Below, piece by piece: positions 20,749-62,920 of a DNA stretch of 64,000 bases; position 1 is the first letter of the stretch, and every line of letters starts with the position of its first letter. A model generated the notes under the pieces. That model did not search any database and was not told where the DNA came from. It was given only the letters and a program-made list of their open reading frames with translations. The DNA is from Macrotrachela quadricornifera. Its lineage: Eukaryota > Rotifera > Eurotatoria > Philodinida > Philodinidae. Location: NCBI GenBank assembly GCA_022393335.1, contig JAJEKB010021819.1:24635-88634 (forward strand), read 5' to 3'. The position numbers and the translations under genes were made by a program.

Positions 20749-22050
20749 CAGCTGTTTTTAAAAAAACTTGGACAACTTGTTATACCAATATTTTCCTACA
20801 TGTATGCTGTTCTTAGACATTTGTATATACTGATTGATAGCCTACGACGAGTACTATCGAACACTATATTTCAATATTTTATGTGTTCACCTTTAGAAGA
20901 AATAAGAGACAAATATCTGTTTTTCATGGATATCACACAATTTTTTACAACAGTAAGTTCAATATTTTTGAACTCTTCAGCAAAAAAAGTTTCAAATTCA
21001 TCAATATTTTTGGGTTTTCTCTTTTCCGCTTTACGTTTTACGATCGACCAAATGTTCTCGATGGGATTAACATCGGAAATGTTCGATGGTCAGTCTGATA
21101 ATTTCGGTATATTATCACTTGTGAATTGTCTACTAATGTTACTTCAATGTTTTGGATCATTGTCTTGTTATAAACGCCAATTTCGGTAAAACTGACCTAA
21201 AATGAAAAAAAAAATCAGTACTTATTGTATTGTTTCCGTTTATTACTTACACCTAGCAGCAGGAACATAATATCGACCATCAAGATTGCATCTGAATGTG
21301 TGACACGTTAATACACCTTTCACACTAACAGCATCCCACACATGAACTTTTTGACGATTTTTAGGCATACATTTATATACATCATTTGGACATTTCAATC
21401 AACGATGAACAGTATTATGAAGAAGTTGAAAGGAAGATTCATCTCTAAAAATGATGCGTGTAAAATCATCGTTTTTATGTTGTTTAGCCCATTGTACACG
21501 CCGTTGTTTATCTTCAGGCTTTAACATATACGTACTTTTTGGTAAAACACCCCTATAACCATATTCATGAAGATGATGTTGTATTGTTACTGTATATACT
21601 GATGAATGATACGTTCTTGATAATTTTGCTTTTATTTCTTTAAGGGTTATTTCATTGTTGCGTCGAATATATTGACCAATAGCTTTTTTTTCTATTCCAC
21701 TAAGTACACGTGGTCGACTATTTCCGCCTCGATGTTTAAGTGAATTTGTTTGTTTTAATTTGTTGATATTGTAATAGATAGTATTTCGTGAAATATCTGT
21801 TTTCTGGTAAATAACACGAGCAGATCGTATGCCTTTTTTCCAATAATGTAATACCGAGATATGATGATTTTTTAATTCACTAGTTGGTGTCATGATTCAA
21901 TATATTGTATCGAAAAGAAAAGAAATCACACTTCTGTATGATGAACGTATTGTATAGCTACTGATGAGTCATCCATAGAAGTATTGGCATTGTAACTGCT
22001 TTCACTGGGAAAAATACCGTAATTTTGTTCAAGTTTTTTTGAAAGCAGTT
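20749..22050 (-). mobile_element. Degenerate Tc1/mariner element
   Basis: About 1.3 kb bounded by TA. The ends are inverted repeats sharing AAAAAAACTTG plus about 10 bases either side (left near 20749-20780, right near 22020-22050). The body is the dead Tc1-type transposase on the minus strand. It begins only ~30 bp from the end of the neighbouring foldback MITE. Confidence 0.75.
20890..21893 (-). pseudogene. Tc1-family (DD34E) transposase pseudogene
   Basis: The frame opens at 21893 with a paired helix-turn-helix region (SRNTIYYNINKLKQTN, then GIEKKAIGQYIRRNNEITLK). The first catalytic Asp is in FRDESSF. Further on, QDNDPKH (second Asp) and SDVNPIENIW (Glu) give the DD34E spacing of Tc1 elements. 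A Trp codon after HNTVHR has become TGA, and further stops sit before QDNDPKH, after it, and at LSD*PS. A GTAAGT...TTTTAG interval of about 60 nt (near 21190-21251) splits the catalytic domain and behaves like an intron. Inactive. Confidence 0.85.
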
Positions 22051-23809: not shown

Positions 23810-26005
23810 GTGTACACTGACTACTCATCTATTCTGGCATATTTCAATCGTCGATGAAAATTATCCTTTTTTTGAGTCAGTATTTATCAAGTTTTTATAT
23901 AATTGAGAGTACTATGGTTCAAATGGATCTTGGTTTTGAGCAAATATTCTGATACGCAACCATTTGTGTTGACTGAAAAGGAAATTGAATAGTTTAACGA
24001 TACGAGAGCCAACCTATGTAGATGTATATGTTTAAATTTATATGTATTTCTACAAACAAGGGGAATTATTAATCAATTTCAAATTCTTTAGTTAAATTTA
24101 TTATTTTCACTCTTAAAAACAAAAAGTAAAGACCAGGATACATAAAGCAAAATGGATACAGAACAGATACCTATGAAAAGAGAGAGGCTAAAGTTATACG
24201 AGTTTTGATAATCGATATTGTTCATTTTCAATACCAAAGTACTGGAAGCAGAAGACCTAATAAGACAAATAGTATTTGCAGTGTTCTTTGTGCGCAGATC
24301 AATGACATTGTTTTGGCTGCATTGTTCGTTGGAAAGGCTCTACTGAGAGCATCGGTAAGCAAATGAAGATTTTTCTTACTCTGCTGTATGAATATTTGAT
24401 AGTCATTATCACTATAATGCTGTGTCACATACTGAAGATTTCTGCGTTGACATGATTCAATTTGTTTTCTTTGAGTCCAATTACAAAGCACAGCATAAGT
24501 CTCATCAGGTGAACATGAACTTTGTACGGTAATATTAGGTGTTTCTAATTCACTTGAAATTCCTGTGAGTGCATCGAGATATTTCCGAAATTCTTTGTCC
24601 TGAGCAATGTGTATAAATTGATTGGTTATTGGACATGAATTAAAGAAGGATTGAGTAGACTGATTTCCCATGCATAATTCCATCAGTTTGTTGCTATCAC
24701 TACTAACGCTAGCACTGCTTACAAACTCAGGTAAGCGTGGTTTAATAAATGGACAGCAAGTATTTATCATGTCACATATAGCTGAATTACTTTGATGGGC
24801 AATGGCCGGTAATTTCGACCTAAATACATCGGTTAGATTGTAGATTTCAGCGGCATCGAAGTTAATTGTTGCAGCCGGAATGATGGCTTTAGATGAACTT
24901 GTTAAAATTAGAAGAAGCAAAAAATGAGCGTGCATGATTACTGACATTGACTAAGTATATCTGCAAGAGGAAAAGAAAAAGTCAAGTGTTGAAACAATAA
25001 AAACACACCATAACATAAGAAAATTTTAACAGATGAAGAAAAACAAATGATTTATAGGCCTACGAAAAGTGAAAATTATTGCTGTATATTTTTTTCTTTC
25101 CTTTCAGTTACTTCTTTTGTTATTTTTTCTCAGTTTTAGCTCTTTGGCTCCTGTTACTTCTTTTGATTCTTTTAATTGTGTTAGTCTATTTTATTTCTTT
25201 AGTCCTTTTAATCCTTTAACTCCTTTTTACGTTTTTTTTTAATTTTCTTCACTTGTGGTAACCCTTCTAAAATTTCATGTGTTTAGTCGTTAAATAAGAA
25301 AATCAATAAAATCACTCCTTTTATGCGTGAAAGATATGCGCAATTATCTAATTGCGTTCAACTACACGACTGACTACTTATGTATTTAACTCTTCATTTA
25401 AACATTATATTAACTAAATTTCAGCTTGTAAACTCAATTCTAAGCGTAAGACAAAGTTGGAATAATATATTGATAGAAATATTGAATGTAAAAGTGTCGA
25501 AATGCGAGTGAGCGCAAATAATAATGTTTCTATTCACATTATTATAATTCAGCATTTTGTTTTCGAAATCTTTGTAGTTTAATAATCTTCCTTTTGACAT
25601 TTTATCTTCGATATTTTGGATTTCTGTTTAAGTTGAGTAAATTTGTTTGACTAGCCATATACTAATCTATCGATCCAACTAACTACGTAACTATATATTT
25701 GTCTACTTATAAGAGTACAAAGTAGAAATGTGCCTTAACAGACGTTTTTCAGCGTTAAAAGTATGAAAACACACAAGGCAGAAAATACTGAATGAAAAAG
25801 TACATCAATGATGACTAATGCAGATGAAATAAGACAATCATACACATGTACAATTGGTGTGAAAAGTTTATGACAACAGAGGAAAATCGAAAATAAGTTG
25901 TATGCGACGACAGATGGATGAAAAACATAATGATTTAGACAAGAGAGAGAAAGATAAAAATATTTAAATATAGAGGTGAGAATATTATTTTTATAAATTT
26001 TTTGC
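23810..26005 (-). repeat. Left arm of inverted segmental duplication
   Basis: About 2.2 kb whose reverse complement matches 41418-43730. The match covers the gene, its 5' flank and its 3' flank. Shared landmarks include TCAACACAAATGG, the Lys/Arg-codon-like GA-rich tract before the gene and GAGAATATTATTTTTATAAA at the inner edge. Similarity stops near 26005/41418 (inner) and 23810/43730 (outer). Confidence 0.85.
24228..24947 (-). CDS. Unknown secreted protein with C-terminal GPI-type signal (copy 1)
   Basis: Intronless, 239 aa. N-terminal signal peptide (MSVIMHAHFLLLLILTSSS) and a hydrophobic C-terminus (LQILFVLLGLLLPVLWY) ending at the stop, typical of a GPI-attachment signal. The mature part has paired Cys motifs: CDMINTCCPF, LCMGN, CPITN, CSPDETYAVLC and ESCQ. 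I do not recognise the family. Its paralogue lies in the opposite arm at 42578-43294. Every Cys listed here has a counterpart there, while many surface residues differ, suggesting both were under selection for the fold. Extracellular membrane-anchored role inferred. Confidence 0.82.
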   Translation of the reverse strand: MSVIMHAHFLLLLILTSSSKAIIPAATINFDAAEIYNLTDVFRSKLPAIAHQSNSAICDMINTCCPFIKPRLPEFVSSASVSSDSNKLMELCMGNQSTQSFFNSCPITNQFIHIAQDKEFRKYLDALTGISSELETPNITVQSSCSPDETYAVLCNWTQRKQIESCQRRNLQYVTQHYSDNDYQIFIQQSKKNLHLLTDALSRAFPTNNAAKTMSLICAQRTLQILFVLLGLLLPVLWY

Positions 26006-41417: not shown

Positions 41418-43730
41418 AAAATTTATAAAAATAATATTCTCGCCTCTGCATTTAAATATTTTTATCTTTCTCTCTCTTGTCTAAATCATTATATTTTTAA
41501 CGCATCTGTCGTCGATTTTTTTATCAAATAGAATGAAAAGTCTACATGAACATAAAGCCGAATACTCTTTTTTCTTGCTTATTATAGGTTTTATACAACT
41601 TATTTTCGATTTTTCTCTGTTGCCATAATCTTTTCACACCAATTGTACATGTGTATGATTGTCTTATTTCATCTGCTTTATTCATCATTGACGTACTTTT
41701 TCATTCAGTATTTTCTGCCTTGTGTGTTTTCATACTTTTAACGCTAGAAAACGGTTAAGACATATTTCTACTTTGTACTCTTATAAGTAGATGGATATAT
41801 AAGCAGACAAATATATAGTTACGTAGTTAGTTAGATAGCTAGATCGAGAGAAAGATAGACTAGTATATGGCTAGCCAAATAAATTTTCTCAACTAAAACA
41901 AAAAGCGAAAATATCGAAGATAAAATGTCAAAAGGAAGACTATTAAACTACAAAGATTTCGAAAACAAAATGCTGAATTATAAAAATGTGAATAGAAACA
42001 TTATTATCTGTGCTCATTCTCATTTCGACACTTTTACATTCGATATTTCTATCAATGTATTGTTCCACTTTTGTCTTATGTTTAGAATTGAGTTTACAAG
42101 CTGGAATTTAGTTAATATAGTGTTTAAATGAATAATTAAGTACATAGATAGTCAGTTGTGTAGTTGAACGCAATTAGATAATAGCGTACATCTTTTTCAC
42201 GCATAAAAGGAGCGTTTTTATTGATTTTCTTATTTAACGACTAAGTATTTGGAATGGTAGAAGGGTTACCTCAAGTGGAGAAAGTTTTAAAAAAAGGTAA
42301 AAAGGAGTTAAAGGATTGAAAGGACTAAAAGAATAAAAGAGAGTGACACAATTAAAAGAATCGAAAGAAGTAACAGGAACCAAAGAACTAAAACTGAGAA
42401 AAAATAACAAAAGGAATCACTGAGAGGAAAGAAAAAAATACACCACGATAATTTTTATTTCTCGTAGGCCTATCAATCATTTGTTTTTCTTTTTCTATCA
42501 AAATTTTCTTGTGTTATAATGTATTTTTATTGCTTCAACAGTTGACTTTTTCTTTTCCTCTTGCAGACACTAAGTCAATGTCAGTAATCATGCATGCTCG
42601 TTTTATGCTTGTTCTAATTTTAACAAGTTCATCTGAAGCTGTCATTCCAGCTTCAATAATTAACTCCGATGCCACTGAAATCTACAATCTAGCCGATACA
42701 CTTAAGTCTAAAATACCGGCCATTGTTCATCGTGGTGACTCAGCCGGATGTGAGTTGATAAATAGTTGCTGTCCATTTATTAAACCACGCTTTCCTGAGT
42801 TTATACACAGTATTACTAGTAGTAATAGCAACGAACTGATGAAATTATGCATGGGAAATCAGCCTCCTCAATCCTTCGTTAATAAATGTCCAATAACCAA
42901 TGAAATTCTAAACATTTATAAGGGCAAAGATTTTCAGAAATATGTTACTGTACTCGCAGAAACTGCCAGTGGGCTAGAAGAACCTAGTATTAAAGTATCA
43001 AGTTTATGTTCACCCGATGAGACTTACGCTCTAATTTGTAATTGGACTCAAAGAAATCAAATTGAATCGTGTCAACGCAAAAGTCTTCAGTATGTGACAC
43101 AGCGTTATAGTGATAATGACTATCAAATATTCGTGCAACAGAACAAGAACAATCTTCGTTTGCTTACCGATGCTATCAGCAGAGCCTTTCCAACGAACAA
43201 TGCAGCCAAAACAATGTCATTGATCGGCGCACACAGAATGATGCAGATACCATTTATCGTATTATTTCTTTTGCTTCCAATACTTTGGTATTGAAAATGA
43301 ACAGTTTCACTTATCAAAACTTAAATAACTTTAACCTATCTGGATCTATAGCTATCCATTCTATACCTATTTTGCTTTATGTATCCTGGGCTTTATTTTT
43401 CGTTTTTAAGAGTTAATATAATAAATTTAACTAAAGAATTTGAAATCGATTAATTATTTCCCTCGTTGGTAGGAATACATGTGAATTTAAACAAATACAT
43501 CTACATAGGTGGGCTCTCGTATCGTTAAACTATTCAATTTCCTTTTCAGTCAACACAAATGGTTGTGTATTAGAATATTTGCTCAAAACCAAGATCCATT
43601 TAAAAAATAGTGTATAGAATTATATAAAAGCGTTTTGAATAAACTAGATAGATACTGACTCAAAAAAACGATAATTTTCATCGACGATTGAAACGTGCCA
43701 GAATAGACGAGCGGACAGTGTACATTCGAA
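41418..43730 (+). repeat. Right arm of inverted segmental duplication
   Basis: Reverse-complement partner of 23810-26005, separated from it by about 15.4 kb. It carries the paralogous GPI-type gene, so the two genes point away from each other. Many substitutions and small indels mark it as an old duplication. Confidence 0.85.
42578..43294 (+). CDS. Unknown secreted protein with C-terminal GPI-type signal (copy 2)
   Basis: 238 aa from the ATG that aligns with copy 1 (MSVIMHARFMLVLILTSSS). The upstream in-frame extension is rejected because a TTGCAG splice-acceptor-like site lies just before this ATG. Signal peptide, conserved Cys motifs (SCCPFIKPRFPEF, LCMGNQ, CPITN, LCSPDETYALICNWTQR, IESCQ) and GPI-type tail (PFIVLFLLLPILWY) correspond to the copy at 24228-24947. 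Identity is high at both ends and across C-N-W-T-Q-R and lower around residues 85-145. Family unknown; likely a cell-surface protein. Confidence 0.83.
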   Translation: MSVIMHARFMLVLILTSSSEAVIPASIINSDATEIYNLADTLKSKIPAIVHRGDSAGCELINSCCPFIKPRFPEFIHSITSSNSNELMKLCMGNQPPQSFVNKCPITNEILNIYKGKDFQKYVTVLAETASGLEEPSIKVSSLCSPDETYALICNWTQRNQIESCQRKSLQYVTQRYSDNDYQIFVQQNKNNLRLLTDAISRAFPTNNAAKTMSLIGAHRMMQIPFIVLFLLLPILWY

Positions 43731-52047: not shown

Positions 52048-52318
52048 ATATATAATCAAACAATAACCGTTAAAGTTCTACCTGCGTTTACATTTATAAA
52101 AAAAAACCAATGAAACTATTCATAAAAAAAGTGTCATGTATAATTAGTGAAAGATAGAAATTTTCTATTTTTTATTTTTATAAGTTCACGTCTTTTTGAG
52201 ACCGATCAGTCTAAATTCTTGATTACACTGGTGAAAAAACAGTACACTTATGTATTAGCTAAACAAGCAATACTTTTACAAAATAGTTTGTTACTTTAGC
52301 TCTACAAAGATATACAGT

Positions 52319-52326
52319 ATCAAACT
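52319..52326. repeat. Left target-site duplication of the 6.1-kb transposon
   Basis: ATCAAACT, repeated exactly at 58436-58443. Confidence 0.92.
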
Positions 52327-52344
52327 CAAGGGGGAACAAACTGA

Positions 52345-52593
52345 TTTCTATGCGAGAAATCATCCAGAAATCATAAGAAATCATAGAAATCATTAGAAAT
52401 CAGAGAAATCGTTGGAAATCAGAAGAAATCAGAAGAAATCAATGGAAATCAATGGAAATCAATGGAAATCATAAGAAATCAGAAGAAATCAATGGAAATC
52501 AAGAGAAATCAATGGAAATCAAGAGAAATCAAGGGAAATCATAAGAAATCATTGGAAATCAAAAGAAATCATAAGAAATCATGAGAAATCAAG
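52345..52593 (+). repeat. Left subterminal 10-bp repeat array
   Basis: 24 copies of GAAATC spaced mostly 10 bp (GAAATCAATG, GAAATCAGAA, GAAATCATAA). Same strand orientation as the right array, hence opposite to the orientation expected of mirrored subterminal repeats. Possible transposase-binding sites, by inference. Confidence 0.9.
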
Positions 52594-53047
52594 GAAACTA
52601 TAATTACTATATAGGAATATTTTTCAGAGTTATTGAACGTCTGATCAAAAAGAAAAGAGCGTCGTACTCTAATTCAATTTCGATAAACATCATGATGAAA
52701 CCATGATGAAATATAGCAAATTTACAGAGTTTTTTTGTTCAAAGTATGCTTAAATTATTTCTGATGATATCTATTTCAAATAAATAACTTGAGAAATAAC
52801 AAATGCTATGCGTTTTTACACATGAATAACACGTGACCAAACATCATTTAATTACTATTCAATGTAGATACCTCGACATCGAGTCTCTTTGGTATTATTT
52901 CATATATGTTCTCTTCTTATATAGTTGCTTAACGAACAGACAATTTTTCTTCCTGTTCATTTTTATCTTCGTCATGTTTAACAAACATCGTCTTTTGTTT
53001 ATTACATTCGTTATATATTTGTATTGATTCATTAAATAGTATCCAAC

Positions 53048-54115
53048 ATGTCTATTGGAAATTTTGTTGTTCCACATAATGTATTTGAATTGCAAGAAAA
53101 TGATTTCTTTGAATTTGTAAAATTATTTGGCGGTGAGAAGTTGTCAAGTCTGGTTAAATTCCAAGATATTAGTAATGCACAATGTCTTCTTGATTGCGAT
53201 GATCCATTTGAAATTCTTTTTTTGGACTCAGATGATTTAGTCGACTTGCAAAAGAAGGCATGCATAAAATTAAAAAGTAATAGTTTTGTAGTCTTACCTG
53301 GTCTAATATCTAAAATGAAGATTTTGAAAGATATATTATTAAAAAAACGCAACGAACTGAAAAAAAAACCAATCATCTCTGCAAATATTAATGTAACAAG
53401 TGATACATCATTAGATAATACAGTTATTAACAACAATGTTACTAATTTAACACAATTGTCTGTTCAAGAATCGATTAATATTAGGTCAACAGTTGCTGAT
53501 AATTATGTAAATAAAGATCAACTGAAACAATATTTAATTGATTTGATTAATAATTGGTGTATGAAATTAAAAGAAAACGAAAAACAATTTGCTTTTTGTT
53601 TAAAACAAGATGCTGATTACCAAATTATGATCGATCTTGTATCAAATAAGGTATTGATCAAATGTCAATGTGGTGCGAAATCGGTTTTAGGTCAAAAAAG
53701 CAATAGATATATCGTAAGTCATTTTTTGAAAATTTTTGTTTTTTTCATGAAAAAATTAGATGAATGTATTTACAGCACAGAAATGAGAAAAATAGTAAAA
53801 TATTTGCGTTGATATTCATCATTGATCATTCTATGTGTTAATATATTAATACTTTTGATGTTATTTTAGTTGTCGAATTTTATTCGTCATTTAACACAAG
53901 AAAAACCATGTGATATGGTCCAACAAAAACTAATGAATATTAATCAGAATGCAAGTGTAAATGGTACTTCTGATAATAATCATATTATGGATTCTGTTGA
54001 TGCAGAAGTAACTATTATGTCAAATTCAATTCCACGTGTTTCTTCATTACGTCACAAAAGAAAACGAAATCAATCAGTCAAATCGTCATTGTCAAAGAAG
54101 GAGAAGAGTATTTGA
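53048..54115 (+). CDS. Transposon accessory protein (ORF1) sharing the transposase N-terminal domain
   Basis: Exons 53048-53713 and 53870-54115 (phase 0, GTAAGT...TTTTAG) give 303 aa. Residues about 17-100 (FFEFVKLFGGEKLSSLVKFQ, DISNAQCLLDCDDPFEILFL, DSDDLVDLQKKACIKL, then LPGLISKMKILKDILL) align along their length with residues 21-98 of the neighbouring transposase. A middle Asn/Thr-rich part follows. Then comes a C-x-C...H...C segment (IKCQCGAKSVLGQKSNRYI joined to LSNFIRHLTQEKPC) that could bind zinc, like a degenerate BED/C2H2 finger. The basic tail RHKRKRNQSVKSSLSKKEK is a likely nuclear signal. No catalytic motif. Possibly a DNA-binding partner or regulator of the transposase. The exon junction falls inside the putative finger, which supports the splice model. 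Unnamed family. Confidence 0.8.
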
Positions 54116-54534
54116 TTATATTTTCTAAATTCGATTTTTATTTTTTTCAGTTTTTATTACTCATTTATCTGTGTGACTTATTTTATATTATTTAATCATA
54201 GTAAAATTTTTCTATATATATATATATGTATCTACAGTTTATGAAATAAATCGATACCAGGTTCTAGTTTAAGTTGTTTAATCTTAAGTTATTTTAAAGA
54301 TTAGCGCGTGACATGCTTGAAAACCCATCATCAGAATCACCTATGATCTTGACAATTTGATTTTAAATGGTTTAAAAGATTGCCTTATAACATGATAATT
54401 CGATCAGAAGAAGTTTATTCCTTTTGAAAGACTAGAGAGTTTTCTGAGACAAAATGTATGCTTTCTTATTATTATTGTAGCCTTTGAATTTTAAAATTAT
54501 GAATATGATACGTTTTTTCTAGAAAAATTTTGAA

Positions 54535-57393
54535 ATGTCAGCTAGTTTATCAACTACCAATCTTTCAGAAGAAGTTTTGTCGTTTCGTGATGATGCATTT
54601 TATAATTTAGTTGAAGAACAATGTGGTAATGTGGTTCTCGAGATTATGAAAGCACAAGATATCTCATCGGTTGAATGTCTTCTTGAAATCGACAACATCT
54701 TTACTTTCTTAACACTCGATTCAGACGATCTCATTCAATTGAAGAGAGAAGCAGGAATTTATCTAAATGATGGTAGTTATATGCTTAAGAAAGGAATAAT
54801 GTATAAGGTTGAAAATTTCCTTCGTGCTCTTCGTGCTCTTGATCAACATTGTTCAATTACTAATCCTCATCACGATTCTTTTAGTTCATCTGATGTAATT
54901 ATTTCCGATGATGTTTTACAAAAATTTCCATTTAATCGAACTATTATTACCTATGGTGAACTCATTATATCTAGTAAAATTGATTTAACATTTTTAAATA
55001 TTATTTTGACGAATATGTTCAACAATTTAATCAGTGATGAAAGAGGTTATCGTTATGATAATATTGTTCGACAATTCGCAGCCAGTATTTACATTCTTGG
55101 AGGACGTACAACATATGATTTTTTACGTTTAAATATTCCTGCACTTCTTCCAAGTATACAAATCATTCAATCGTATATAGCTGCTTCAGAAAACCATTTA
55201 ACCGAAGGATTATTTAGTTATAATCATATTCGTGATTATTTTAATTTAAATCAATCAACATTAGGTTTTTGCGCTGAAGATTGTACAGCAATTATTCCCA
55301 GAATTACATATGATACTTTGTCAAATTCATTCGTTGGTTTTACACGTCCACTCGATGCTAATGGAATTCCTGTTGCTGACTCATTCTCAACAGACTCATA
55401 TACTCGTTTAGAATATTGGACTTCGACTTTATCACCAGCTAAATCATTAAATGCTTTTGTCGTTCAACCGCTTTCAGCTTCAGTCAATCATATCTCTCCT
55501 TATCTACTTGGTGCTTTCGGAACAGATGGGAAGTTTACAGCAACAGATGTTTTGTCTCGTTGGCGTCATATTTACCAAGAGTCGAAAAAAAAAGGCGTTC
55601 GTATCTTAGGTTTTTCAAGTGATTGCGATAGTCGGTATTTACTTGCTATGAAATCAGCACTAGGATTCTTCGCACCTTTTGCCTTCGTTGATCATCCAAA
55701 TTTATTTTCAGTCGATCTCCCAATGACGTGGTCCTGGTTTTTTATGCAGCACGAGATACTATTTGTATGTATGCAGGATGCAATTCATGTTTGTACTAAA
55801 CTTAGGAACCGACTTCTTTCGACAAAAGCAACGCTTCTTTTCGGTACTCAATTAATCAATATTGATCCTCTTCTTTATCTTATTGACAACTTCTCAAAAT
55901 TCGATCATTCACTTGTTCGTTCAGATGTAAATCCAAAGGATAGACAAAATTACAGTTCAGCAGCAAAAATTTCCACTGATAATGTTCTCAGTCTACTTGA
56001 ACAAGTTCCAAATTCTGTTGGTATTCGTATTTATTTACAGGTATTTAATAACAACTCTATCAAATTAGACGGAAGTTTTTGATTTTCTTTGAACTTAACA
56101 TAAAAAAATGTTCAACCAGATTTGAAAGAACGTTTTTTAAATATATAAGATTGAACTGAATGAAATATATGAGGGGTCTGTATAACCATATCATTTCTAA
56201 TTATAATCTGACATCTTCATAACATTTCTGTAGATCTTACAAAATATTTTCCTCATACTCTAGAGGTAAATTCTTAGTCTGTAAGTTAAAGATTATTACA
56301 AAAAAAGGTTCATTATTATAATTTTTCTAAAAAAATATTTTTAATTTTTGTGTTCTAGGCGATTAAAAGTGTAAGACTTGCATACATAGAAAAAACAACT
56401 AACATCATGGACCGTATTTTCCATGGATGGACAGCAGTATTTATTTTCAGATTTTGGTGTCTATGGATCAATAAAATGGATAAACAAAATCTCAACAAAA
56501 TTTTTTCACAATTATCTGATATTGATATACAATCTAATAAAAATATTAAACCAAAATCACAGTATTTCATTACATATCAATCTCACTTTTCCGTTGAGAT
56601 CAACGCTCATTCTCTTGTTTATCTTGTAATGCTTGTTTCTGAACAGCAGCTTCCTATTGAAGCTCTGACCGTATGGTTACAAAATTCTCAAACATGCGAA
56701 AATACTTTTAGATCAGCAAGAGCAATATCAAGCACTTTTTCAGCAGGTGTAAACTTTACCATATCACAATTTCTTTCTCATGTAAATAAATTATCAACTT
56801 TACAAAAAATTAAAAATAACAAACATCTGAATTATTTGCATTTTCCACAACATCACAAACTATCGAAAACATCAGACAATCTCTATACCTTATCAAATAC
56901 AAAAATTCCATCTAAATTTGATATTGAAGATATCGTTCAAAAAGCATATGAATATGTAACTCAACTCTTAAGTCCATTGAAAATCGAACATTTCATGCGA
57001 CACGAACAAATAATAACATTGAAAGATTTGAGTGATGTTATTTCACGTCATTTGGATGTCTTTTGGTCGACGGAGATAGAATTAAACGAAGATTCATCTC
57101 ATGATTCAGATATCAATGCAAATTGTACAACATTAAGTGATTTAAATGGCTATGATAGTGATGATATGATGGAATTAGATGAAGACAATGATAGTATTCA
57201 TGTTACTAATATCTCAGGTGTTCAAGGGATACGTGTATTTGATAAAGTGACACGAGAACGTGAACATACATATTTTAAGGTTAATATTAACAATCAAACT
57301 AAATATTTACATAAGCAAACGGCCACTTGGCTCTTACAAAAAGAAAAGAACTCGTTATCTGCTGATAGATTGTCACGTGTTAAAGATTCATAA
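54535..57393 (+). CDS. Putative transposase (ORF2) with RNase-H-like core
   Basis: Exons 54535-56040 and 56359-57393 (phase 0) give 846 aa. N-terminal domain (about 21-98) shared with ORF1. The central region carries EDCTAIIPRITYDTLSNSFV (D249 area), then FGTDGKFTATDVLSRWRHIY and ILGFSSDCDSRYL (D363/D365). Next are QDAIHVCTKLRNRLL (416-430) and VNPKDRQNYSSAAKI. In exon 2 come FHGWTAVFIFRFW and CENTFRSARAISSTFSAGVN, whose Glu is a candidate third acidic residue, like the E-x-x-F of hAT and P proteins. An acidic stretch and a C-terminal LHKQTATWLL ... LSADRLSRV motif end it. The same motif order occurs, from memory, in uncharacterised proteins of cnidarians and molluscs. Assignment of the catalytic triad is inference. 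No stop or frameshift, so it may be active. Confidence 0.78.
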
Positions 57394-57426
57394 CTTGTTT
57401 TTTGGTTAAGAAGGTCATTAATTTTT

Positions 57427-57899
57427 ATGAAAATTTGTAAACTACTCTTCTTATATTTAGTTTATTGTTTTAATGTAACGTTTTAACGTTGAATAACGTC
57501 GTTGACAGACAAAGTAAATTTAACATAATTATAATTTCGTTTAACTTTCACCATATGTAAATCATATAGATATTTGTCAAAGTGACACAAGAATAAAAAG
57601 ATATTAAAAGTAAAGAAAAGAAAAAGATAGTGAATGGAATATAAATGAAGAATAACAATTCTTTATTCTTTCCAGTATCTCCGTCTTCCCATTCACTATC
57701 TTTTTCTTTTCTTTACATTTAATATCTTTTCATTCTTGTGTCACTTTGACAAATATCTATATGATTTACATATGGTGAAAGTTAAACGAAATTATAATTA
57801 TGTTAAATTTACTTTGTCTGTCAACGACGTTATTCAACGTCAAAACGTTACATTAAAACAATAAACTAAATAAAAGAAGAGTAGTTTACAAATTTTCAT
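57427..57899. repeat. Near-perfect hairpin, 211-bp arms
   Basis: Arms 57427-57637 and 57689-57899 are equal in length and differ at only four positions by eye (about 98% identity), without indels, around a 51-bp loop. It starts 33 bp after the transposase stop. A transcript through the 3' region would form a long double-stranded RNA. It could also be a foldback element that inserted recently, but no target duplication is evident. Confidence 0.93.
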
Positions 57900-58144
57900 G
57901 AAAAAAACTTTTTTTTTTTGTTTCTAACTTTTGATATTATTTAATAAGAAAAATAATAGCTACAGGTATAATAATATAGTTTCATACTGCTTTATTATTG
58001 TTTTGTGTATTAAAAACTAAATATATACAATGTTTACCTAATCATACAATTGTTCTAAAACGTATCTTAATAACGCAATAGAAAATGAGAGTTTCACTTT
58101 TGTTTCTACTAATATTTAGACACCATAAGAATTCATTTATAATA

Positions 58145-58423
58145 AAGAGAAATCACGAAAAATCATTAGAAATCAAGGGAAATCGTCAGAAATCAAGAGA
58201 AATCATCAGAAATCATCAGAAATCATTAGAAATCATCAGAAATCATCAGAAATCAATGGAAATCAAGAGAAATCATTAGAAATCAAGAGAAATCATCAGA
58301 AATCAGAAGAAATCAATGGAAATCAAGAGAAATCATTAGAAATCACCAGAAATCACCAGAAATCATTAGAAATCATGAAAACGAAGTTAGAAATCAGGAA
58401 ATCAAGAAATCAAGAAATCAGTT
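58145..58423 (+). repeat. Right subterminal 10-bp repeat array
   Basis: About 26 copies of GAAATC, mostly as GAAATCATCA, GAAATCATTA and GAAATCAAGA. It runs directly into the right terminal repeat (GAAATCAGTTTG...). The ORF across it is a by-product of the 30-nt frame periodicity. Confidence 0.9.
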
Positions 58424-58435
58424 TGTTCCCCCTTG

Positions 58436-58443
58436 ATCAAACT
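58436..58443. repeat. Right target-site duplication of the 6.1-kb transposon
   Basis: ATCAAACT, identical to 52319-52326. Confidence 0.92.
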
Positions 58444-61081
58444 CATACAATCCTTGCAGTTTCTAAATAGAAATCTCAAAAATAGTTCAGAAAGCCTTAA
58501 ATCGTTTTCAAGAGATGTGAATTGACTTAAGTGACTGGCAAATATCAGAATTTTGCCTTTATTAGACTTTGTCTCTTAACTTCTTAACGATATGTTGAAA
58601 TTCAATTTGAATTTTTCATTAAGAAATAAAATGAAGCGTCAAGACTTTTACTATAATGACTGAAATAGAAATGATCGACGGACAAGAAGGTAACACAGAT
58701 AGAATGAGGTAATCGAGAAGATTCCTCATCCAATGTGTAAGATTTTTGACAATATTGAACTCTAAAATGCTTCGTTTTTTGAGAAAATTCAAAATTAAAT
58801 CATAACTTAACAAAAGAAAGCCCCAAATGAATGGAAATATTTTTCGCTTTGCGATACTTGAAAATTACGCAGACATACTTCACCTATAAGTGAGTAACTC
58901 TTTTATTCAACACACTGATTCCGCTTCTGCTTGCATTAGCTTTAGTTGTAGTAGTTCTTAACGTAGCCATCCACTTTTGGAAGCAAAAGTGCGTAACAAA
59001 TTTTTATGAAGTGTGTATAGGAAAGCATTTATTTTCAAATAAGTGGTAGAATGAAGCGGAATCATCAAGATATCAACTAAAGCATTGTGATTCAGAGAAA
59101 ATCAATATTTGCGTCGCTACAATCGATAAAACAGATTTTACTTCTTTTAATTTTTTTTTCTGTTCGTCAAGATCGTTACTTTCAAAGAAATTTCTACAAG
59201 CATAGCTATCTTCGATAAGGAAAGTTTAAGGTAAAGTTTCTTTCATGCGCAAAAATGTCTTTTTTTGAGCAGATTTCGAATATTACATATGTTTTCTAGG
59301 AGTTTGTAAGAAAGTTCTGATGTGGAAAGAAATAATCTGAATCCTGAACCGTTTTACTAACGTATCCGGAATTCTACCTATTTGCACGAAAACTAATTGG
59401 AAGTGACATCATTTTTGCACATCATTCGACCGATAAAACATTTCTCGAACTCTAACGCAGGAATTTTCCATCCTCTCGTACCAACCTGATATAACAAAGT
59501 ATACAACATTTAATCACTATAATGAGTGTCCTTTTTAATTGAACATCTTCGGTTGGTTTACTGAAGAGATTTTTGGGGGAAAAACACTTTATTTCTCGTT
59601 TTATTTTCGGGAGAAACCCAATATTTTCAGCCATTTTTTGCAAGAGAAAAGGTCAATATAAAGTGTTTCACAGAATGATTTTTTTTTGTGAGTAGTATTT
59701 TACAGCATTACTCAGCATTGTTAGATAACCTATGCATCTAGAAAGCAACTCTAACTTAGTTCCTTAACACAGCTGAAATTGTCTATTTAAGTTTTATTGA
59801 TACCAAAATATTATCGTAGTTGCATGATGCTAGTACTTAGAACAACGTTGACAATAGAAATGATTTTATTAAAAATATTTTCCTATGAAAGCGTGAATTT
59901 GGATATTGGGCTTCTATGAAAATTAGCTAAAATTACTATATATGAGTGAATCAGAAATTTCAAGAAAAACCATGAATTTAAATCGATAGTAGCTTGTAAA
60001 ATTTGACTCATTCCACATAATATGAATCTCCATCGAAAGGATGAGAAAGTGTTGGTCAATATTACGAGCTGAGATTTTCAATACGATTGAAGTTTTGTCA
60101 ATAGGAAACTTTCCGAATCAAATCTCTTGACCATTAATTCCATGAAAATCTTTAAAAAAGAGCAAAATAAGCAAGTTTTAGTATCCAAAAAAATTTTAAA
60201 AATTGCCAAAAAACTGGTGAAGAGCGACTAGTCCGGTTCCAAATCTATCCTATATCTGTTCATTTAAATACAAATATATCTTACACGATGTTCAGCTTTT
60301 TCAGATTCCATTTCACATAAAAAAATCAAATATCAGAATTGTGAATTTCCTTCAACCCACTAAGCATGAAATTTTTACAATTGAAGCTATTTGAGTAATT
60401 TCAGATCGAAATTCTGCAACTAAGGATGGCACTTTGTTTTTTACTTTACTCGTTGAACTTTATACAGAGGCGCCGTTGCATAATATTCAAATCTAACTAT
60501 CGGGTTTGTCTATGATTTTAATGGTTGAATAGAAAGAAAGAGTGCACTCTAGAGAACTCTTGTCGCCTGGTAAACCAAAAAATTAGTTTCTGAGTTTCGG
60601 AAACCAACTACGATTTCTGAATCAATCCCACAAACTCTTAAAAGGTTTTTTCGAGATGGAAAATAGGTTTCAAACTTTCGGAAACTAGTCGCTTTTTTTG
60701 AAAACCCTTTAAGATTTTTTTTAACATTCAGTTTATTGTTCCATAAAAGGTTAACAAGTGACAAGCGCATAACTAGAACATCCCCAAAATGGTTTAGAAG
60801 GAAGAGAGAGAGAGGTGGACACTAAGAAAACAAAAAAAAAGAATAGAGAGAGAACCGAAAAGAAAGAAGCGAAGAAAAAAAATAAGAAAAAGATAGAAAG
60901 GAGAAAAAGAAAAAAAGAGGAGAAAAACCACATTAGTGAAACCATTACATCGTTTTCACTTCACATTCCAGTGTTTCCAATCAACATAACCATATTTTTT
61001 ACTTATAACAACAGTGAAAGAGAAAAACTAAAAAACATACGAGGTATAAGATTTTCTTTTTTTGTTTCTTCACACCAGTAT
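58444..61081. other. Intergenic; purine-rich tract near 60.8-60.9 kb
   Basis: No supported gene. 60800-60930 is a long GA-rich tract (AAGAAAAAGA-type); the Lys/Glu and Phe frames across it are low-complexity artefacts. Confidence 0.45.
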
Positions 61082-62920
61082 TTAGGGTAGTTTAGTAGAA
61101 AAGTATTTCAAGACAAAAAATTCTAGAACTGAGCTTGATATGTTAAAATATCCGTACTGTTCTTTGTGTACATCAAGAAAGGAGATCACATCTAGAAACA
61201 CAAGCTTTTCACGTTCTGCAAGTCTTACAGGGAAACAACTATTTTCCCTAAAACCCATACTTTTATAATATGTTTTGAAAGGATACTTTGCAATGAAGTA
61301 GGCCGTTATCGTTTGTCTGTATGTGTCAGCTTTAGGAGCTATATCTAAATGTTTTTGAAACTTTAACCAATATTTATATAGGTAGTCTCTCAAGGAAAAC
61401 TCTCGGCTTAATGCAAAAGTTGATATGTCATCATATCCCCAAAGGAAATATACCAATCTCAAGCCTGTTCTGAATACGTGTTCGATCTTCCCTTTTTGTT
61501 TCTCAGTAAAGTAAAAAAAAAAAGAGCCAGATGATTTGGGGAAGGGAAAAGGTTAAAAATATTTTTCTTCTTAATCTAATTTCGTTCTTAGCGATTGTAT
61601 GAAATATCTTTCTTAGATCACAGTAAGATTGTCTCACTTTTTGCAATCTCTCGTCAATAAACTTTTCTCATCCTAATTTTATACCAATATGAACGCCTAA
61701 ACATTTAAAATTGGTAACATATTTAATCGAAACTTCTTTATGTTTGATTTCAGGCTTTGAAACCTTTACTACGTTATGAACCAACATAACTTTCGTTTTC
61801 GCAACATTCACTGAGAGAAGATAGTTGTCCGAAAAACTTTCTAGTGCCTTTAAAACTGCATTAGCTTGGTGTTGTAGGTATTCGATGTTGTCCGACATAC
61901 GTTTTTCTAAAGCTTCTTTTATAATTAGGGTGAGGTCATTGGCAAAAAGATGACTTACTATTTCAGGAAAATGGAGGTGTAAAAAATGTATGTGTATTCT
62001 GAATAAAACTGCAACAAGTACACTTCTTTGAGGAGCGCCTACTAAAATAGAGAATTGTCTTAATTTTGTTTCGTCATGAGAAATTTTCATCTATCGATTC
62101 TTTAACCAGTGAAAACTCCATTTTCTCAACTCAGTAGGCATTTCTAATTTTTCTAAGGTATGAAACAAAGCTCAGTCTTAAATCTTCAACAATTCCTAAT
62201 ATTTTCTATCTTCTCCTGTTTGAAGGCGAATTTTTCTTGTTTATAAATGTTTTCCCAATATTTAAATGTTTTATAATCATGCAGAAATCTAGTTCTTCGG
62301 AATTTTCTTTTTAACTTGTTTACTGTTCGAGCTAAATTTACTAAATGAGGTAGCCAACGAGGTCTAAAGTTTTCCACATGCTCAAAACTAGTACATCTAT
62401 CGCTCAAAGCCGCTAAAGCTGGCAAGAAGGGATGATAAAAAAAGAAAGGGATGATGATCAGAAGCTCCCTCGACCAGTCTTTCAATTTCCCAGTTCTCTT
62501 TACTTTTTCCTATACCGAAATCAATGAGAGAGTTTGACTTTTTTGAAGTAGGCTGAGAAGGATGTAAAATAACAAATCCATTTTCTAGTAGCCACTCTTT
62601 TAACTTATTTCCAGCAACGTTATTACATTCACAGTTCCATTCCTGGTTTTTTTGAATTGAAGTCTCCAAAAATAAATATCTCCTTTTCTGTATGTTTGTC
62701 AAGAAGCTCAAAGGATGGTAAGCTTCCGGGAGGCACGTATATACTAGGTATGAATATTTTTTCATTCAAAATTTCAATCTGAATTAATACGAAGTTAACT
62801 GCGTCTTCAATTAACGAGGTTCTCAGTTTTTGATAGGCTAAAATTCCAACTCCACCGAAACTGTTTGTTCTTTTGGAACTATATCATTCAAAATTTGGAA
62901 CGTGTGGAAGCTTAGATATC
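61082..62920 (-). pseudogene. Degenerate non-LTR retrotransposon (LINE) ORF2
   Basis: Read on the minus strand from about 62905: the APE-type endonuclease (GGVGILAYQ, FIPSIYVPPGSLPSFELL, IFGDFNS), a frameshift, then WNCECNNVAGNKLKEWL, NSLIDFGIG and SDHHPF. The linker to the RT follows (FRPRWLPHLVNLARTVNKLK). RT motifs 0 to A are missing: the sequence jumps to LEKLEMPTELRKWSFHWLKN, then VGAPQRSVL, and HLFANDLTLI, where the FADD box has become FAND. The thumb-like C-terminal part (RLVYFLWGYDDISTFALS, RDYLYKYWLKFQKHLD) ends at 61082. Several stops and frameshifts. Jockey/I/CR1-like in style; clade not assigned. Inactive. Confidence 0.85.

Follow-up and report, generated by a model that had tools for sequence, protein, structure and literature searches.

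A two-gene, P-related DNA transposon without a detected THAP domain in the bdelloid rotifer Macrotrachela quadricornifera

The stretch analyzed here (hereafter the window) comprises 64,000 nucleotides of contig JAJEKB010021819.1 of the bdelloid rotifer Macrotrachela quadricornifera, and carries an element of 6109 bp (52327-58435; 28.6% GC) encoding two proteins, ORF1 and the P-like transposase ORF2. This element is part of a real mobile family and represents a THAP-less, two-gene, P-like clade. It is not filed as a canonical P element because a THAP domain was not found and the residues that contact guanosine triphosphate (GTP) in P are not evident. Taken together, the evidence makes it probable that this is a cut-and-paste DNA transposon of bdelloid rotifers that is related to P elements and built differently, with ORF1 standing in for the THAP domain. 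No description of the family was found in the literature searched, and the term "P element" is absent from the main text of a survey of bdelloid transposons (PMC7943196); an entry in Repbase or Dfam may nevertheless exist.

Boundaries, genes, and their association

The element is flanked by two copies of ATCAAACT, an 8-bp target-site duplication (TSD), at 52319-52326 and 58436-58443; both were established by direct comparison, and an uninserted site has a single copy. The insertion was staggered by 8 bp. Comparison of the ends exposed terminal inverted repeats (TIRs) at 52327-52349 (plus strand) and 58413-58435 (minus strand), the identity of which extends over exactly 23 bp (CAAGGGGGAACAAACTGATTTCT) and ends there, while a length of 24 was also obtained because one flanking base pairs too. 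From base composition alone, the chance that 23 bp at any one given position are complementary is ~3e-13 and that of the 8-bp TSD ~5e-5. Both genes lie on the plus strand and are spliced, with GT..AG introns predicted from DNA alone. ORF1 (303 residues; 53048-54115, exons 53048-53713 and 53870-54115) was identified from its frame, an N-terminal domain (N-domain), and a Cys-Cys-His-Cys finger, and ORF2 (846 residues; 54535-57393, exons 54535-56040 and 56359-57393) from its frame, homologues, and fold. A preliminary description had presented the locus as a complete two-gene DNA transposon with a perfect 8-bp TSD and two spliced open genes lacking inactivating mutations, all of which is borne out by the TSD, the TIRs, and two frames free of internal stops; the TIRs, there called perfect and long, are perfect but not long, because the match stops at 23 bp. 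The one-directional ~10-bp arrays at the two ends and the domain common to both proteins are additions to that description.

The two genes appear to travel together. The first ORF2 exon has at least 93 matches in this genome, and an ORF1-like frame was located upstream of ORF2, on the same strand, at 23 of the 30 loci examined (L052 and L053 removed), some of which look like near-duplicates and are hence not independent. In A. steineri, homologues of ORF1 and ORF2 are each on a contig of 21,969 bases, probably one and the same, and three Rotaria gene models (P0002, P0006, and P0009) fuse the two. Comparison with the intact copy L011 by the Nei-Gojobori method gave nonsynonymous (dN) and synonymous (dS) divergences of 0.316 and 1.252 for ORF2 (842 codons) and of 0.461 and 0.938 for ORF1 (302 codons). 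Both genes therefore look constrained, ORF1 less so, with dS values high enough to bring uncertainty.

A P-type transposase

The nearest relatives of both proteins come from Adineta and Rotaria, with ORF2 matching the A. steineri protein P0001 at 74% over its full length and a Rotaria protein at 84% over 59% of the query. We connect ORF2 to P transposases because of its fold, the positions of its D, D, and D(2)H residues, and Pfam matches in its relatives. In a fold comparison based on a model of P0001, the helix-turn-helix (HTH), RNase H, and insertion domains all matched P and no other fold compared was near; 409 of the 456 residues of 6pe2_A aligned with the model. The P-type HTH of ORF2 (residues 155-211; 54997-55167, plus strand) was located with PF12017, which scored 16.4 bits in the window protein, below the cut-off of 23, and exceeded the cut-off in P0058, P0061, and four of ten host relatives.

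The catalytic residues, all encoded on the plus strand, were placed by aligning Drosophila P transposase, ORF2, and 18 relatives, an alignment that is unreliable after D415. D249 (55279-55281) and D363 (55621-55623) aligned with the catalytic D230 and D303 of P, and D415-x-x-H418 (55777-55788) with the D339 D(2)H box (PMC8230255); the three columns hold D in 17/18, 18/18, and 18/18 relatives, respectively. The sole exception, in the D249 column, is P0001, which may be an inactive copy because H replaces D there. The RNase-H core signature of the P superfamily reads D, D, [C/D](2)H, E, with the D(2)H box after strand 5 (PMC8230255), and D415-x-x-H418 directly follows a strand in the P0001 model. 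For E531 of P, the candidate is E616 (56698-56700), situated in a model helix (613-624) and in a motif, SQ.CE..F, that resembles the NQDIVEHF around E531. The roughly 200 residues between D415 and E616 are mostly helical in the P0001 model, so that a large helical domain is inserted after strand 5 of the RNase H and before its helix 4, as in P.

Several results weigh against a P-related transposon in which ORF1 replaces THAP. The structure modeled was that of P0001, with its H in place of D249, rather than of the window protein, and E616 was assigned from its motif and the model helix in a region where the alignment is astray. Direct sequence support for P kinship is weak: hhalign gave 88.6% with the A5 profile, 25% with A6, and 0.4% with A3, and in hmmsearch A5 reached 11.7 bits, above the 10.0 of the top-scoring control among 201, whereas the A2, A3, and A6 profiles each scored under their best control. 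In 2006, every known P protein was said to have a THAP domain (PMC1562414), and none was found in ORF1, ORF2, or the 30 ORF2-family and 12 ORF1-family members. The eight residues with which P contacts GTP (K385, K400, V401, S409, F443, D444, N447, and D528; PMC7776569) are not conserved in our alignment, which is unreliable in that region. Finally, seven of the 30 loci have no ORF1-like frame in the available stretch, possibly reflecting its shortness.

Part of this evidence would also fit a superfamily separate from P, one that split off before THAP was gained, has only the DDE core and the HTH in common with P, and never used GTP as a cofactor. THAP is absent from the proteins scanned, GTP-contact residues are not evident, similarity to Drosophila P is near noise, and both the distinct ends and the second gene are compatible with such a split. 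We nevertheless consider it unlikely, given that three domains match P with no other fold compared near and that the D(2)H box resembles that of P. The preliminary description, in which the superfamily was left unassigned, is supported in part; the RNase H fold it had raised for the acidic residues is of P type in the model of P0001.

We also noted a large sister group, numbering 406 proteins at E up to 0.01; the 120 matches listed, with P0101, P0102, P0104-P0109, and P0123-P0235 among them, share the D, D, D(2)H, and E boxes of ORF2.

ORF1 and the recognition of the ends

ORF1 and ORF2 share their N-domain (residues 12-91 of ORF1, 53081-53320; residues 14-93 of ORF2, 54574-54813; both plus strand), which is 35% alike over 80 residues (E 1e-12) and was also recovered by the ORF1 profile. 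Beyond it, ORF1 has an intron-split finger, C.C...RHL...C (53663-53911, plus strand), recognized by homologue comparison. The pattern is kept in five of 11 homologues (P0113, P0115, P0118, P0119, and P0121), several of the others being shortened gene models, and in two fused gene models (P0006 and P0009). A thrips relative, P0103 from Frankliniella fusca, has a similar, Cys-Cys-His-His-like finger (residues ~38-80) with which its transposase protein begins, and therefore a finger accompanying a P-like enzyme sits in a separate protein here.

The two seemingly constrained genes go together with helically phased arrays at both ends. Counting GAAATCA cores in the first and last 600 bp returned a left array of 23 cores (52356-52591) and a right array of 25 cores that reaches into the TIR (58149-58420), both spaced mostly by 10 bp and both on the plus, coding strand. 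The arrays are direct repeats outside the inverted repeat, and a reverse core occurs near an end just once, within the left TIR. In the four two-gene copies compared that have this exact TIR (the window, L011, L012, and L013), the left and right arrays alike run along the coding strand; the left array opens with a step of 11 and continues at ~10, and toward the right TIR the final cores are spaced by 8 bp. Among the 30 ORF2-exon loci, 13 contain CCCCTTG, a 7-base tip, or its complement, and 12 of these have it oriented as in a right end (...GTTT(T)CCCC(C)TTG), against ~1.5 occurrences per strand predicted from base composition. The repeats preceding the tip vary, at 9-11 bp, e.g., AGAATCAC or AAAATCCC, and a conserved tip next to a subterminal repeat that differs from one lineage to another is as expected if a lineage-specific protein reads the repeat.

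Two further observations concern these ends. At L045, the tip is opposite to the right-end orientation, perhaps by chance. In the window, a 216-bp inverted repeat with a 51-bp loop (57422-57904; 98% complementary) follows the ORF2 stop and precedes the right array, and was not at that place in any of the three other two-gene copies checked (L011, L012, and L013).

From these features we infer both the biochemistry and the role of ORF1, as follows. ORF2 would consist of an N-terminal partner domain, the P-type HTH, an RNase-H core (D249/D363/E616) into which a large helical domain is inserted, and a C-terminal tail. It would cleave the DNA at the CAAGGGGG ends, with the 3' terminal G then joined to target sites spaced by 8 bp. 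In place of the missing THAP domain, ORF1 may bind the helically phased ~10-bp subterminal repeats, and the shared N-domain could let it gather ORF2 on the ends. The direction of the arrays, together with their differing spacing beside each TIR, could mark left versus right, a distinction for which a 9/21-bp spacer asymmetry has been proposed in P elements. The present ends would be a third solution, beside the P spacers and the long TIRs of Galileo.

The main rival for the role of ORF1 retains the P-like transposon and makes ORF1 a regulator that poisons or represses ORF2, with ORF2 reading the ends via its own HTH. Shortened P products repress the transposase, and ORF1 carries the N-domain of ORF2, has no catalytic part, and looks less constrained than ORF2. 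The preservation of an ORF1-like frame upstream at 23/30 loci speaks against repression, however, as does the finger within the P0103 transposase itself, which suggests a function in transposition, and we regard a repressor as rather improbable. With ORF1 as the stand-in for THAP, a bolder reading, somewhat less likely than not, is that the family is an entire, probably old bdelloid P-related clade with a two-protein machine, in which the ORF1 finger reads one-directional, helically phased 9-11-bp arrays that vary among lineages and GTP is not needed. End recognition would on this reading lie outside the transposase, with ORF1 tied to it by the shared, perhaps SAM-like, domain.

Mobility in the host genome

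Past mobility is evident from the host genome (450 Mb, 5695 contigs). The first 20 bp of the left TIR had 74 exact matches (38 forward and 36 reverse, counting the two ends in the window), compared to none for a reversed-pattern control. Convergent TIR matches within 8.5 kb formed 14 pairs, i.e., that in the window and 13 others, spanning 51 bp to 6.5 kb; the TSD matched at 8/8 bp in seven, at 7/8 bp in two, and did not match in five. Most short pairs look like non-autonomous derivatives. Sites lacking the element, which the preliminary description had pointed to as a check, were found as well: the 220 bases obtained by joining the window flanks via one ATCAAACT were matched along their whole length by contigs C2595 (99%) and C4980 (95%), and both sites have a single ATCAAACT at the junction, with the element absent. 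A longer join was identical to C2595 at 2423 of 2506 aligned bases (96.7%), with eight gap positions. We conclude that the family is mobile because of the 74 TIR matches against zero in the control, the TSDs in 7/14 pairs, and the uninserted site.

That the element is a dead relic is very improbable. Two of the three other two-gene copies compared that have this exact TIR (L012 and L013) do have interrupted frames and no matching TSD, but the window copy and L011 retain intact frames and a TSD, the uninserted site is 96.7% identical, and both genes look constrained.

Very short pairs of the same TIR were seen at L009, L014, L013 (a second pair), L017, and L020, and look like tiny non-autonomous or rearranged derivatives. 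Those of 145-180 bp have a one-directional array between the TIRs, that of 51 bp has no array, and that of 474 bp has 15 cores per direction. Separately, the joined flanking pieces (52217-52326 and 58444-58553) match many places in the genome (39 matches), and therefore the element lies inside a dispersed repeat. Elsewhere in the window, open frames at 24231-24950 (minus strand) and 42452-43291 (plus strand) start with a nearly identical signal-peptide-like protein sequence, and the gene therefore seems to be duplicated in inverted orientation. Frames at 21402-21896 and 61085-62090 (both minus strand) resembled, by eye, a transposase HTH and broken reverse-transcriptase pieces.

Comparison with known systems

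Because it has intact copies, two genes, and no detected THAP domain, this relative could help to separate the older parts of the P machine from the newer, to learn whether the P fold entails GTP use, and to explain how a transposon's left end is distinguished from its right; it also brings a large unnamed clade into research on the transposons of animals that have long been asexual. An 8-bp TSD is also characteristic of hAT, Merlin, and Zisupton/KDZ, and the RNase H split by a helical insertion, a feature of Hermes, would fit hAT, yet assignment to any of these is scarcely credible. Transib / RAG, with a 5-bp TSD, was rejected on TSD size, which is 8 bp here.

The closest comparison is with Drosophila P (PDB 6p5a and 6pe2). 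The two have in common the fold of the HTH, split RNase H, and insertion domain, the D, D, and D(2)H positions, the 8-bp TSD, short repeated sites inside the ends (PMC7776569), and ends that begin with CA, and hence a 3' terminus of G. They differ in that here no THAP domain was found, GTP-contact residues are not evident, there are two genes, and the TIR is 23 bp and CAAGGGGG. P transposase has been described as the sole transposase known to use GTP (PMC7776569). Moreover, Drosophila P combines single binding sites of 10 bp, spacers of 9 and 21 bp (PMC7776569), and 11-bp inverted repeats, in contrast to the long one-directional ~10-bp arrays of the present element.

Zebrafish THAP9 / Pdre2 likewise has an 8-bp TSD, a short TIR starting with CA (CATACCTGTCAAC), and a long gap between the end and the inner repeats (PMC10983969), whereas its THAP domain is present, it has a single protein, and its subterminal repeats are inverted rather than direct. 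Galileo, of the P superfamily, also has several tandem-repeat binding sites near its ends (PMC3688188), but these are THAP-bound and lie within inverted TIRs of 0.5-1.2 kb, as opposed to direct arrays beside a 23-bp TIR. PIF/Harbinger resembles the present element by architecture only, encoding an ORF1 and a transposase (PMC2836001); the differences are a transposase with the fold of P, a TSD of 8 bp, and a domain common to ORF1 and ORF2 in the present element.
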